In this document: positions 23,892 through 31,779 of the stretch, piece after piece
Position numbering within the stretch: position 1 is the first letter of the stretch
How the letters are laid out: every line of letters starts with the position of its first letter
NCBI GenBank assembly: GCA_003576845.1
Contig: QEVJ01000028.1
Span: 1 to 46,344, forward strand
Origin: Planctomycetota bacterium
GTDB taxonomy: Bacteria > Planctomycetota > Planctomycetia > Pirellulales > PLA5
Reading direction: 5' to 3'
DNA length: 46,344 bases
Translations under genes and position numbers: made by a program
The notes under the pieces: model-generated
Told to the model about the DNA's origin: nothing
Seen by the model: the letters and a program-made list of their open reading frames with translations, nothing else
The model's database searches: none

Positions 23892-24599
23892 TTATGCCTG
23901 CGGTTTTGCGAGCGTGTCGCGAAAAGCCGCGTGGTCGGCCGTGGCCAGACCGCGTTCGAGAGCTGCAAATAGTCGCGTAAAATCGCGCTCGAACAGCGCG
24001 GCTTCGTCAATCCACAGTCCCGGGAACGTCCGGACGCGGATGATATTGTCGGGCGCGATCGTCAGCGGTTCGTCGGCCGCCAGATCGAACCAGAACACCT
24101 TTCGTTCCTCGACCGACACGACGAGATATTCGCGCACGCCGTACCGCCGATAGTCGTCGCGTTTGGCGTGCAGGTCGATCGAGCGGGAACTGTGGGCGAT
24201 CTCGATTAGAAGCTCGGGCGCGCCGGTGATGTAGCCGTCGGGCGACGTGCCCGATTGCCCGCCGCGGTCCGGGCGAATGCGGACGAAGATGTCGGGCTGC
24301 GGCTCGCTGTCGGGGCCGAGTTGCACTGTTGCTTCCGCGCCCGCTTCGACGCCCGGCGTTCGGCTTTCGTAGAGTCCGCAGAGCGTCAACAGCGGCGTGA
24401 ATCCTAAGGCGTGCAGGGCGCGGGAAGGCGAGGCCACGTAGACGGTTCCTCCGATCAACTCGGCGCGAAACGGATCGGCGGTCTTGGCGTACCGCTCGTG
24501 GAACTCGGCCCGCGACATGCGGTCGCCCGAGTGCAGCTCGGTCGACGCGAACTGCACCGGGAAGAAGGGCGTCAAGCTGGAATCGTGTGCGGTGGACAT
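23892..24599 (-). CDS. Uma2-family (DUF820) restriction-endonuclease-like protein
   Basis: A 235-residue member of the Uma2 family, which has a PD-(D/E)xK nuclease fold. Visible family features are EPQPDIFVRI (Asp), APELLIEIAHSS (Glu) and KRDDYRRYGVREYLVV. Uma2 proteins are numerous in planctomycetes and cyanobacteria and their natural target is unknown. I used ATG 24599; the upstream stretch 24615-24649 resembles an interspersed element (CGTAGGTCGGGCC) rather than coding sequence, so the longer starts at 24650 and 24665 are less likely. Confidence 0.8.
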   Translation of the reverse strand: MSTAHDSSLTPFFPVQFASTELHSGDRMSRAEFHERYAKTADPFRAELIGGTVYVASPSRALHALGFTPLLTLCGLYESRTPGVEAGAEATVQLGPDSEPQPDIFVRIRPDRGGQSGTSPDGYITGAPELLIEIAHSSRSIDLHAKRDDYRRYGVREYLVVSVEERKVFWFDLAADEPLTIAPDNIIRVRTFPGLWIDEAALFERDFTRLFAALERGLATADHAAFRDTLAKPQA

Positions 24600-24698
24600 G
24601 TCCAGTCGCATTCGCCGTAGGTCGGGCCAAGCGGCATTGCGCTTAGCCATTGTCAATTGGCTCAACCCGCGCCGGCCCGACGTTCTGCCGTCTCGCCA

Positions 24699-27748: not shown

Positions 27749-28224
27749 GTCGGGGTCTCGTGGGGCAGGGTAGGCAGTGGAGAATGGGCAGTGGGCAGCT
27801 TTATTATTCGCGCTGTCTCGCCCAAGGGCACGTGGGCTGCGAGGCACTCGGTTCTATGATCGCCGGGCCTTTCCGACGGCGACTAGCTTATTGTGCTTGC
27901 CGGCCGATCACACTGTCAACGCAGACTTGGATGTCGCGATGCAAAGGACGATTGGTTGAAAAAGCAATGTCAGGCCGGCGCGGGCCGAGGCTCCCGGTAA
28001 TGGAAAGTCGTTTGCCGCTTGGCCTGACCTACGACTGGGGTTACTCGGGGCAGACTGGCGGAAATCCTGGCGGCTTTCGCGTTGAGGACCGGCAACAAGG
28101 ATTTTCCTGCGGGCTAAAAACTGCTTGAACCGATCAATGAATTTTGATAGGATGCAGCGGTCGACGCAACCGCGGGCGGGACTGCCGCTCGCGACTCCAC
28201 ACGGCTGCGCAAGGAGTGAACGCG
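27749..28224. other. 476-bp divergent intergenic region
   Basis: Between the DsbD-like gene and the DUF1501 gene. It holds G-rich words (GCAGTGGAGAATGGGCAGTG, 27774-27793), an inverted pair GTCAGGCC (27969-27976) and GGCCTGAC (28021-28028) 44 bp apart that resembles an interspersed element, and a probable promoter at 28125-28153. I see no gene. Confidence 0.5.
28125..28153 (+). promoter_or_regulatory. Probable promoter of the DUF1501 gene
   Basis: TTGAAC (28125-28130), a 17-bp spacer and TAGGAT (28148-28153), in a locally AT-rich stretch, 72 bp before the ATG. Each hexamer matches four of six consensus bases. Confidence 0.45.
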
Positions 28225-29568
28225 ATGCTCAACGTCCTCTCTCGTCAGGCGTCCGGGCCGTTTTGCGACGGGATGTCGCGGCGCGGGTTCATCAAGGTCG
28301 GCGGGCTGTTGTTCGGCGGGCTTTCGCTGCCGGAATTGCTGCGGGCGGAGTCGGCGGCGGGGATCCGCAATTCGCACAAGTCGTGCATCATGATCTTCCT
28401 GCCCGGCGGACCGCCGCACCAGGACATGTTCGATCTCAAGCCGGATGCCCCGGCGGAGATTCGAGGCGAATTCCGGCCGATTGGGACGAACGTTCCGGGC
28501 ATCGAGATTTGCGAGCTGTTTCCCGAGCTTGCGAAGCGGATGGACAAGTTTGCCATCATTCGGTCGATCGTTGGGGCGACCGGCGATCATTATGCCCATC
28601 AGTGCATGACGGGTCGGCCGCACCAGAACCAGCCGCCGGGCGGTTGGCCGTCGATCGGGGCGTGGGTATCGCGGCTCAAGGGGGCGGTTAATCCGGGCGT
28701 TCCGCCGTTCGTGAGTCTCGCGTACAAGTGTGCCCACGGTCCTTGGGGCGATCCGGGCGCGGCCGGTTTTCTTGGCGTGGCTCATTCGCCGTTCCGGTTG
28801 ATCGGCGGCAACTCCGACGAAATGGTCCTGCAGGGCATCACGCTCGAACGGCTCAAGAACCGTCAACAATTGCTCACGTCATTCGACACGTTCCGCCGCG
28901 AGGCCGACACGCGCGGGCTGATGGACGGCATCGACTCATTCAACCAGCAGGCGATCGGGATTCTGACGTCGTCGAAGCTGGCCGAAGCGCTCGACATCAA
29001 CCAGGAGAAGCCGGAAACCGTCGCCCGATACGGCAAGGGGATCATCCAGCCGCGCGACGACGGGGCGCCGCGGATGACGGAGAATTTTTTGATCGCCCGC
29101 CGGCTGGTCGAGGCGGGGGCGCGCGTGGTGACGCTGAATTTCTCGCGTTGGGACTGGCACGGCGGCAACTTCCGGCAGGGCCGCGAAGATATGCCGATGC
29201 TCGATAAGGCCGTGACGGCGCTGGTCGACGACTTGCACGAGCGCGGACTGGACAAGGATTGCACGGTCGTGGTCTGGGGCGAATTCGGCCGCACGCCACA
29301 GGTCAACAAGGACGCCGGCCGCGACCACTGGCCGCAGGTTTCTTGTGCGCTGCTCGCCTGCGGTGGCATGAAAACGGGCCAGGTCATCGGCAGCACGAAC
29401 CGGCTCGGCGAGCACGCCAAGGATCGGCCGGTGAAGTTCGGCGAAGTGCTGGCGACGGTTTACGAGAATATGGGGCTGATGCGGAACCAGGAGCGGATCT
29501 TCGACCTTCGTGGGCGGCCGCATGGGTTGGTGGACGAGGGCATCGAGCCGATGCGCGAGTTGATCTAG
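28225..29568 (+). CDS. DUF1501 protein with Tat signal
   Basis: A 447-residue exported protein of the DUF1501 family, which resembles the alkaline phosphatase/sulfatase fold and is amplified in planctomycetes. A twin-arginine signal (SRRGFIKVGG, about 18-27) targets it folded through the Tat system. Family features include MIFLPGGPPHQDMFDLKP, GRTPQVNKDAGRDHWP and a conserved C-terminal GLMRNQERIFDLRGRPH. The activity is not known for the family. AAGGAG lies 8 nt before the ATG. DUF1501 genes often pair with a cytochrome-containing DUF1549/DUF1553 gene; none is adjacent here. Confidence 0.9.
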   Translation: MLNVLSRQASGPFCDGMSRRGFIKVGGLLFGGLSLPELLRAESAAGIRNSHKSCIMIFLPGGPPHQDMFDLKPDAPAEIRGEFRPIGTNVPGIEICELFPELAKRMDKFAIIRSIVGATGDHYAHQCMTGRPHQNQPPGGWPSIGAWVSRLKGAVNPGVPPFVSLAYKCAHGPWGDPGAAGFLGVAHSPFRLIGGNSDEMVLQGITLERLKNRQQLLTSFDTFRREADTRGLMDGIDSFNQQAIGILTSSKLAEALDINQEKPETVARYGKGIIQPRDDGAPRMTENFLIARRLVEAGARVVTLNFSRWDWHGGNFRQGREDMPMLDKAVTALVDDLHERGLDKDCTVVVWGEFGRTPQVNKDAGRDHWPQVSCALLACGGMKTGQVIGSTNRLGEHAKDRPVKFGEVLATVYENMGLMRNQERIFDLRGRPHGLVDEGIEPMRELI

Positions 29569-29604
29569 CATAGGTCGGGCCGTTTGCCGCAACGAGGGGC
29601 GCTC

Positions 29605-29680
29605 CTGCTGGCTTTTCCAGCAGTGAGAATCGCCGCTTGGTGTTGTGCGACAAATCGCACTGCTGGACAAGCCAGCAGTG
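29605..29680. repeat. Pair of CTGCTGG/CCAGCAG palindromes, upstream of the membrane gene
   Basis: Copy 1: CTGCTGG (29605-29611) and CCAGCAG (29617-29623). Copy 2: CACTGCTGG (29658-29666) and CCAGCAGTG (29672-29680). Both have 5-nt loops. Two related copies lie at the other end of the gene. Confidence 0.7.
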
Positions 29681-29727
29681 GCACCCGGCGCACTCGACGA
29701 CCGATTGCATTCCGTAGAAGCGGACTC

Positions 29728-30540
29728 ATGTTCAACTTCGACGGCATATTGGATCGCCTGGTCAAAGGTTTGTCCGCCTATCCGGCAGTTCGAAGCAAGC
29801 TGCTTCGCTATTCGATACCGGTCTTTTTTCTTGCGGTACTGTTCTATCTTTTCTCGTATTTCAATCACGGATATGAAGTTCCAGAGCAGCTACGGATTGC
29901 ATTTCTAGCTGCAATGGCGATGTCGGCCCTTGCAGTATTGTTGTGCTTAGTTTCGTATCTCCTGGAGCTTCCAACTGAAGCAATAGAAGTTCAGGCGGAA
30001 TTGGCTCCGTTGCGCGTGGAGCGAGAGGCGATCCAACGTAGACTAGCGGCGCATGACGAGCCCGGAGACGTGCTGCAATCTATTCAACTCAGCCTCAATC
30101 AACTGAGTGAGTATTACACGATCAGTAAGGGGCAGGCTCGAGGCAGCTTTCGCGTCAGTGTCGCAGCAATGATCTTGGGATTCGTAACACTCATTGGCGG
30201 CGTCTGGCTTTTCTTCTTCCAATCCTCGGATACGAGGGTCGCAACTGTTGCCACATTATCCGCGATAGGTGGAGTTCTATCGCAATTCTTGGCCGCCTCG
30301 TACTTCTATCTTTACAGGACGACGATTGCCCAGATGAACTACTTTTATGACCGCCTAGTGTCCTTGCAGGACACAATGCTTTCGATCCGACTTTGCGAAG
30401 GGATCGACGACAAACCCCTTCAGTTGGCCCTGAAAGAGAAAATTGTCGTCGCACTATTGGCCCAGCAATCCCGTGCAGTGCCGTCTGCGACTGCTGGCTT
30501 GCCCAGCAGTGCAGAAGCCGCGAATGATCGACCATCGTAG
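29728..30540 (+). CDS. Four-helix membrane protein resembling the TRADD-N-associated two-TM domain
   Basis: A 270-residue membrane protein. Helices are predicted at about 30-46, 58-80, 145-166 and 172-197, with a charged cytoplasmic linker (85-120) before SLNQLSEYYTISKGQARGSF (122-141). That segment, the two helices after it and YRTTIAQMNYFYDRLVSLQD resemble, from memory, the TRADD-N-associated membrane domain first described in cyanobacterial conflict systems. There is no death-like or nuclease domain attached. The gene is visibly richer in A and T than its neighbours, and its C-terminal TAGLPSSAE is encoded by a palindromic repeat. I chose ATG 29728 because the longer frame upstream is made of those repeats. 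The ribosome-binding site is weak. The function is unknown. Confidence 0.7.
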   Translation: MFNFDGILDRLVKGLSAYPAVRSKLLRYSIPVFFLAVLFYLFSYFNHGYEVPEQLRIAFLAAMAMSALAVLLCLVSYLLELPTEAIEVQAELAPLRVEREAIQRRLAAHDEPGDVLQSIQLSLNQLSEYYTISKGQARGSFRVSVAAMILGFVTLIGGVWLFFFQSSDTRVATVATLSAIGGVLSQFLAASYFYLYRTTIAQMNYFYDRLVSLQDTMLSIRLCEGIDDKPLQLALKEKIVVALLAQQSRAVPSATAGLPSSAEAANDRPS

Positions 30541-30637
30541 GGAATCAGTTTCGACGCACCATTGTTGACGCCGTTCACGGACGCTTCGAGAATGGATCGC
30601 CGCACGGCGATTCGCAATGCTGGGCAAGCCAGCAGTG
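30490..30637. repeat. Pair of CTGCTGG/CCAGCAG palindromes, downstream side
   Basis: Copy 3, ACTGCTGG (30490-30497) and CCAGCAGT (30503-30510), lies inside the 3' coding end of the membrane gene. Copy 4, GCTGG (30619-30623) and CCAGC (30629-30633) followed by AGTG, is degenerate and intergenic. Loops are 5 nt. Confidence 0.6.
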
Positions 30638-30726
30638 GCAGACCGCAGCCGAACTGCGGCAGAATTGTCGACTTTGGCCGCGCCCCGCGATCGGTGGTAA
30701 AATGCAAGTGGCTCAAGGAGCTATTT

Positions 30727-30975
30727 ATGGACTACCAGTTCCCACCCGACGTTCTCGATCGCGTTAGAGTGCACATGGCGTCGGGGCGTTACGCCACGGA
30801 GGAAGAACTGTTTGCCGACGCGCTGTGCGCTCTTGATGGGATGAAGATGCAGCAAGAGCAACTTCGCAGCGGAATCCAGCAGCGCATTTGCAAGGCGGGG
30901 AAGAGGAACTCGGCTCCATTGGACCGGGAAGCCTTCAAGGCCGAGGCCCGTCGGCGATTCTCCGAGCAATCCTAG
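30727..30975 (+). CDS. ParD-like antitoxin, without an adjacent toxin
   Basis: An 82-residue protein. The opening DYQFPPDVLDRVRVHMASGRYATEEELFADALCALDGM matches the ribbon-helix-helix and linker of ParD-type antitoxins (given in two parts: FPPDVLDRVRVHMASGRY, then TEEELFADALCAL). The C-terminal third is charged and probably unfolded without its partner. A strong AAGGAG precedes ATG 30727. Antitoxins of this type are normally followed by a parE gene, but the next gene 15 bp later is a zinc-ribbon membrane protein, so this looks like an orphan antitoxin or regulator. Confidence 0.7.
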   Translation: MDYQFPPDVLDRVRVHMASGRYATEEELFADALCALDGMKMQQEQLRSGIQQRICKAGKRNSAPLDREAFKAEARRRFSEQS

Positions 30976-30990: not shown

Positions 30991-31779
30991 ATGCCGGTTC
31001 GCTTTCGGTGTTACGGTTGTCAGCGGGTGCTCAATGCGCTTGAGCGGAAGATCGGCGAACGGGTGAATTGCCCTGGCTGCGGCACGTTGCTCGTTGTGCC
31101 GGAGGGGGATACGGTTCCGAGCCCGCCGGGCGTGCCGCTTGATTCTGAGGCGACGTCCTCAGCGGCTCGGGCGGACTTTGGCGAAAGCTGGGCGAGTTCC
31201 GGCGGGTTTCGCATCTCTCGGCGCGTGATCTACGCGCAGGCCGTGTTGCTGGCCATCGCCGCCGCGGGCTTTTTCGTCGCGGGTTACTTTATCGGGCGCG
31301 GCAAGGAGCCTGCCCCGAGCGGCGATAGCGGTTCGCGGACGATTGCGGTTACGGGGCATATTGAATTGGTCGGTCCGGGCGGGGCTTTCGTGCCGGATGC
31401 CGGCGCGGCGGTGTTGATCCTTCCGGCCGAGCGCAAGCCGCGGCGCGACGCGAAGATCGACGCGGCGGTGCTTGGCCCGCTGGCGGCGCTGCCCGCGGAG
31501 AACGATCTTGCGCTGGCGCACGTCGAGTCGCTCGGCGGCGCTTATGCGCGGACCGACGAGCGCGGCGACTTTCGGCTGTCGCTGCCGCAACGAGGGTCGT
31601 ATCGCGTGTTGGTGCTTTCCCGCGAGCCGGCGGGCGACGGGGAACCGAGCCGAGCGGACCTCGCGTTGGTCGGCGAGTATGTCGTCGATGCCCTGGGGCT
31701 CTTGGGGCCGCAACGATACCACTTGGCGACGGCGGACTTGGCCGATGGGAGCCGGTTCGAGCATAGGTTCTCCGAGTAG
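30991..31779 (+). CDS. Zinc-ribbon, single-TM hypothetical protein
   Basis: A 262-residue protein of unknown function. A small zinc ribbon at the N-terminus has Cys7, Cys10, Cys27 and Cys30 (FRCYGC and VNCPGC). A Pro/Ser linker leads to a single membrane helix at about 80-101 (AQAVLLAIAAAGFFVAGYF). The remaining 160 residues are outside or periplasmic and look beta-rich (TIAVTGHIELVGPGGAFVPD, RGDFRLSLPQRGSYRVLVLS), similar to carboxypeptidase-regulatory-like folds. This layout, a cytoplasmic ribbon plus an exported beta domain, is common in planctomycetes. The gene starts 15 bp after the antitoxin-like gene. Confidence 0.75.
   Translation: MPVRFRCYGCQRVLNALERKIGERVNCPGCGTLLVVPEGDTVPSPPGVPLDSEATSSAARADFGESWASSGGFRISRRVIYAQAVLLAIAAAGFFVAGYFIGRGKEPAPSGDSGSRTIAVTGHIELVGPGGAFVPDAGAAVLILPAERKPRRDAKIDAAVLGPLAALPAENDLALAHVESLGGAYARTDERGDFRLSLPQRGSYRVLVLSREPAGDGEPSRADLALVGEYVVDALGLLGPQRYHLATADLADGSRFEHRFSE

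Follow-up and report, generated by a model that had tools for sequence, protein, structure and literature searches.

The 46,344-nt stretch of Planctomycetota DNA analysed here (contig QEVJ01000028.1 of assembly GCA_003576845.1; hereafter "the window") carries an open reading frame for a membrane protein of 270 amino acids, set between two anchor genes and flanked on each side by copies of a palindromic repeat. The features of the interval, with their basis, are as follows:

28213-29568, forward strand: upstream anchor gene, DUF1501 (Pfam; 84% DNA identity in the same-genus genome G001).
29597-29686, no strand: complete 90-nt REPIN/MITE-type element with two inverted palindromes 55 nt apart (whole-length alignment to the genome consensus).
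29728-30540, forward strand: ORF of 270 aa with four predicted TM segments, comprising an N-terminal pair, a charged linker, the CyanoTRADDas_TM hairpin and C-terminal helices (ORF calling, Pfam, composition, hydropathy).
30127-30336, forward strand: DNA coding for the PF20712 (CyanoTRADDas_TM) domain (Pfam match).
30479-30647, no strand: second inverted palindrome doublet, diverged, with a 101-nt spacer where ~30 nt is standard (sequence comparison).
30491-30509, forward strand: palindrome in the 3' end of the ORF, supplying the last ~20 codons (palindrome search, alignment with relatives).
30727-30975, forward strand: 82-aa ORF, weakly ParD-like (TIGR02606, 15.3 bits against a cut-off of 46.2).
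30991-31779, forward strand: downstream anchor gene, zinc-ribbon membrane protein (conserved in G001, adjoining an MqnA-type gene).

The ORF runs from an ATG at 29728 to a TAG at 30540; an in-frame TTG further upstream, at 29584, is not credible as a start, since it would take translation across the left repeat element. A first-pass annotation of the DNA had described a four-helix protein of 270 residues, and ORF calling and hydropathy bear this out: four hydrophobic segments (residues ~21-39, 57-75, 145-163 and 171-189) are arranged as a TM pair, a charged linker of ~70 residues, a second TM pair and ~80 C-terminal residues. The same annotation had proposed a TRADD-N-associated two-TM family, and the Pfam profile search returned this very domain, PF20712, at residues 134-203 with 56.7 bits against the curated gathering score of 24.3; the two-TM hairpin inside the domain corresponds to the hydropathy segments 145-163 and 171-189. 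In an alignment with relatives, the family residues Y129, G151, G158, G182, L184 and L210 are kept, while the last ~20 codons (AVPSATAGLPSSAEAANDRPS) lie past the conserved end of the protein and consist of palindrome element. Structure models built from one or two input sequences predict an all-helical protein at low confidence (mean pLDDT 58.5 and 55.7) and gave no usable fold match in Foldseek, and a profile of five members had no matches in the PDB.

PF20712, the cyanobacterial TRADD-N associated 2-transmembrane domain, takes its name from its association with TRADD-N proteins. With the type of this family the 270-aa protein shares the above-cut-off domain and the TM hairpin, but it differs in having no TRADD-N, in its additional N-terminal TM pair and in being encoded by a stand-alone planctomycete gene; Pfam searches for TRADD-N, caspase and STAND domains gave no match, either in the protein itself or in the genes immediately around it. 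In parts of the work describing them, TRADD-N proteins are assigned to prokaryotic conflict systems found in bacteria of multicellular habit, among them planctomycetes, and in these systems TRADD-N stands in the same protein or the next gene together with variable effector or sensor domains, an arrangement from which our gene departs; the PF20712 TM domain is not described by name in those parts (PMC8195603). What is new here is a stand-alone planctomycete member of an already known domain family, by which a TRADD-N-associated membrane domain named for cyanobacteria is extended to a stand-alone four-TM planctomycete protein.

Two other families of membrane proteins deserve consideration. The SLATT two-TM effector domains (NCBIfam NF033634; PMC7159879), predicted to be pore-forming effectors (PMC7159879, eLife 2020), resemble the protein in their membrane-hairpin logic and in a weak co-linear match of SLATT_1 to residues 124-214 (E 0.0027); weak SLATT_1 matches occur in three of five members, with SLATT_4 and a weak DUF4231 match in one each. 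As SLATT is a predicted pore-forming effector, this below-cut-off similarity would favour an effector reading, to be taken as a lead only. That the protein is itself a SLATT member or close relative, i.e., a nucleotide-responsive pore-forming effector whose partner genes have been lost, we regard as unlikely: every match falls under the curated cut-offs (17.7 bits against 41, on which we rejected membership), no SLATT Pfam model matches the 270-aa protein at E<=1, and no nucleotidyltransferase, SLOG, TIR or other nucleotide-signal gene lies near it. Far less probable still is an ordinary housekeeping protein of the MotA/TolQ/ExbB stator type, with two-plus-two TM segments and cytoplasmic extensions. 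Its topology is alike, Foldseek gave weak matches to MotA, TolQ and ExbB, and one family member weakly matches the MotA model; however, the Foldseek matches rest on the low-confidence model, MotA_ExbB is absent among the 25 Pfam families listed for members, and no ExbD/MotB partner adjoins the gene. Homology to these proteins was rejected by profile-profile comparison, in which hhalign against E. coli TolQ, ExbB and MotA gave a probability of 0.1-0.2%.

PF20712 was found in all five aligned members, which come from planctomycetes, Rhizobium and Streptomyces. The four-TM layout of the 270-aa protein recurs in the proteins of genomes G219 and G385 and, with one extra segment, in the Rhizobium protein, all three at 23-31% identity, and a relative from Tritonibacter shows a similar hairpin by hydropathy. 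The nearest sequence relatives are located on Rhizobium plasmids, where WP_004119876.1, a hypothetical protein of R. tropici CIAT 899 and relatives with a layout similar to that of the 270-aa protein, matches at 36% over residues 107-253, about half of the protein. The Rhizobium-plasmid relatives lie near recombinase and transposase genes, the Streptomyces relative lies on a plasmid near integrase and Tn3 genes, and the G385 relative adjoins a C5 methylase gene. In the Rhizobium plasmids the four-TM homologue lies 71 nt behind the gene of a 313-aa protein (L089 4562-5503), whereas the window gene has no such partner. The pair (L089 4562-6504) comes from Rhizobium freirei and is seen also in R. 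tropici, R. leucaenae and R. lusitanum; it offers a testable gene pair.

By eye, the 313-aa protein has the look of a caspase-type His/Cys dyad (HFDTHGD and LACFS motifs). This candidate was rejected, as the pattern found no support in Pfam, NCBIfam or the PDB, and the CHAT model misses the protein, its sole weak match in that Rhizobium genome lying elsewhere. The protein does match the phage family phrog_38219, of unknown function, and has relatives on Cupriavidus, Burkholderia and Klebsiella plasmids. We therefore consider it quite improbable that the four-TM CyanoTRADDas_TM proteins form a membrane-effector family of their own, paired with a caspase-like peptidase on Rhizobium plasmids and alone in planctomycetes. 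If true, this would place another peptidase-controlled kind of membrane killer alongside the bacterial gasdermins, and a peptidase role for the 313-aa protein, with control over the four-TM protein, would make the family much more interesting.

The composition of the gene sets it apart within the window. A GC content below that of the neighbours had been claimed from inspection, and calculation agrees: the ORF has a GC of 0.514 and a GC3 of 0.565, against GC3 values of 0.834, 0.723, 0.787 and 0.805 in neighbouring genes, and is the lowest-GC 813-nt stretch of the whole window (mean of all 813-nt windows 0.639, sd 0.027). Since GC3 is hardly affected by hydrophobic composition, the GC3 gap would not merely reflect the encoding of membrane helices. 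The homologous genes are likewise AT-rich within their own genomes, and an AT bias of the gene family would fit the low GC as well.

The distribution of the gene is sporadic. A search of 56 further genomes from the genus and the order gave no homologue of the protein. Matches to PF20712 above the cut-off occur in 3 of the 296 order genomes and in 2 of the 392 phylum genomes; one of the three order matches, in G004, sits in a 584-aa multi-pass ORF and is probably spurious. In G001, the one same-genus genome compared, the homologue is missing and the DNA between the anchor genes differs from that of the window. The G001 contigs break within this interval, and a clean empty site was not observed: the end of the DUF1501 contig shares an exact 141 bases with another contig, on which a 146-aa ORF, a repeat remnant and a sulfatase-like gene follow. 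The zinc-ribbon gene comes after a fragment of an IS3-type transposase and an ORF of 89 aa (both named by eye), and neither the PF20712 gene nor the 82-aa ORF occurs on either side. Given the outlier composition, the sporadic distribution and the absence in the same-genus genome, we judge the gene to be probably acquired, and lateral gain is the best reading of these sequences; loss of the gene in relatives is a possible alternative. A phage origin was rejected, there being no match in phages or viral contigs. The first-pass annotation had suggested a mobile or recently gained gene and a comparison of the locus across relatives; acquisition is supported, as is the absence of the gene from a differing interval in G001, whereas a mobile unit of gene and palindromes is not.

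The palindromes themselves are as that annotation had placed them, two before the gene and two at its end, one of the latter inside the reading frame. They have the form CTGCTGG-N5-CCAGCAG and lie at 29605-29623, 29660-29678, 30491-30509 (within the ORF, codons ~255-261) and 30617-30635 (3' of the ORF, with one mismatch). The three exact copies in the window are all at this site; with up to three mismatches there are 8 matches in the window against 1.76 expected, a number reached by no shuffle. The left element is ~72-97% identical to other matched copies. As the in-ORF arm lies beyond the part that aligns with relatives, the right element seems to have inserted within or close to the 3' end of the gene.

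Counted over the genome, the motif is anything but specific to this locus. The exact motif has 101 copies in 7.05 Mb (reversed control 0), mostly inverted doublets with palindromes 53-58 nt apart within a 90-nt element, whose core in aligned copies reads GGGTGCCACTGCTGGCTTGTCCAGCAGTG - spacer - CACTGCTGGACAAGCCAGCAGTGGCACCC. The left doublet as query gave 77 matches, and since many doublets match on both strands, the matches listed resolve to roughly 45 separate places. Among relatives, 23 of the 39 genomes searched contain the exact motif, the spacing between palindromes being variable there too; the maximum, 214 copies in G021 of the same order, shows that the repeat group has expanded separately in some lineages. 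By its structure, the repeat corresponds to REP doublets as Bertels and Rainey (2011; PMC3116915) use the term, multicopy inverted palindrome doublets like those seen here, and REP families have been reported in planctomycetes (PMC3733652). It differs from REPINs in that several copies reach ~148 nt with outer 15-nt CTAGTGCTTTGTCAA terminal inverted repeats, as in a MITE inserted at CTAG; such copies were seen at L076, L079, L082, L084 and elsewhere. A parent element of these copies was not found, the search for an IS630-type transposase matching the outer repeats yielding one DDE_3 gene. Of the four Y1_Tnp (Y1-type transposase) genes in the genome none is flanked by the exact palindrome, and one follows directly on a sister doublet, CTGGTGG/CCACCAG, with 63-nt arms (L026, on C70 of the same genome, 1127-1972). 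The latter is likely a RAYT and possibly the mobiliser of the repeat group, and its position behind the sister doublet makes a RAYT-type mechanism plausible.

This abundance bears directly on the earlier proposal that gene and palindromes move together, as a composite unit in which the gene is cargo carried by two flanking elements. Inverted doublets do lie on both sides, their arms pair across the gene (I3 and I4, 87-88%) and the gene is compositionally foreign. Since these arms are common to every copy in the genome, however, pairing across the gene is expected; the gene is single copy against 101 motif copies, ~100 palindromes being present without it; the 1-kb flanks of 26 other element copies have ordinary GC (mean 0.64, lowest 0.58); and no such doublet occurs in the stretches fetched around five distant relatives (G219, G385, Rhizobium, Streptomyces, Tritonibacter). 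The right doublet, moreover, is diverged and has one arm inside the ORF. With 46-60 sites placed at random, 24-39% of genomes would have two element sites no more than 960 nt apart, so that one such bracket per genome lies within chance (0.24-0.39). On repeat counts, flank GC, homologous loci and this chance estimate a composite transposon was rejected, and we regard the cargo reading as highly improbable: the palindromes are a separate short mobile repeat that forms no unit with the gene. A striking feature of the locus is thus a common repeat of a bacterial order and no mark of the 270-aa gene, and in this group repeats should be counted over the whole genome before a gene is read as "bracketed". 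The elements also enter into another reading, that the gene is a degenerating remnant, a lone effector gene that has lost its trigger genes and is drifting, its end overwritten by a repeat element. The lack of partner genes, the C-terminal tail of repeat sequence and the rarity of the gene point this way, but the frame is intact over 270 codons, the six conserved residues named above are kept, and stand-alone relatives are likewise without obvious partners; we hold a remnant to be rather unlikely.

Our preferred explanation is an acquired, stand-alone membrane gene of the CyanoTRADDas_TM kind beside which REPIN-type elements inserted independently, an account that we give, taken as a whole, about an even chance of being correct. 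The gene would have arrived by lateral transfer in a variable interval flanked by two conserved genes. Independently of this, an abundant miniature element would have inserted once on each side, its right-hand copy replacing or lengthening the final ~20 codons. The protein would reside in the inner membrane, its charged linker and C-terminal helices lying in the cytoplasm, and may oligomerise via the conserved PF20712 hairpin. We infer a membrane effector or sensor, likely a stand-alone effector, which might perturb the membrane, or sense its state, in a stress or anti-invader response with no dedicated partner gene at the locus.

The immediate neighbours (DUF1501, the weakly ParD-like ORF, the zinc-ribbon protein and MqnA/radical-SAM genes of menaquinone-pathway type) lend no colour to the defence or stress island once thought conceivable here. 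The ParD-like antitoxin label for the next gene proved weak, its TIGR02606 score missing the cut-off, and PADLOC gave no match for the 270-aa gene, the next two genes or 9 of 10 further genes; with gene and immediate neighbours blank, the island was rejected. At 5 kb from the gene, the protein encoded at 23892-24665 on the reverse strand matches the PADLOC candidate PDC-S03 (best E 1.7e-12); we take it to be probably a common nuclease-fold protein, Uma2-like.
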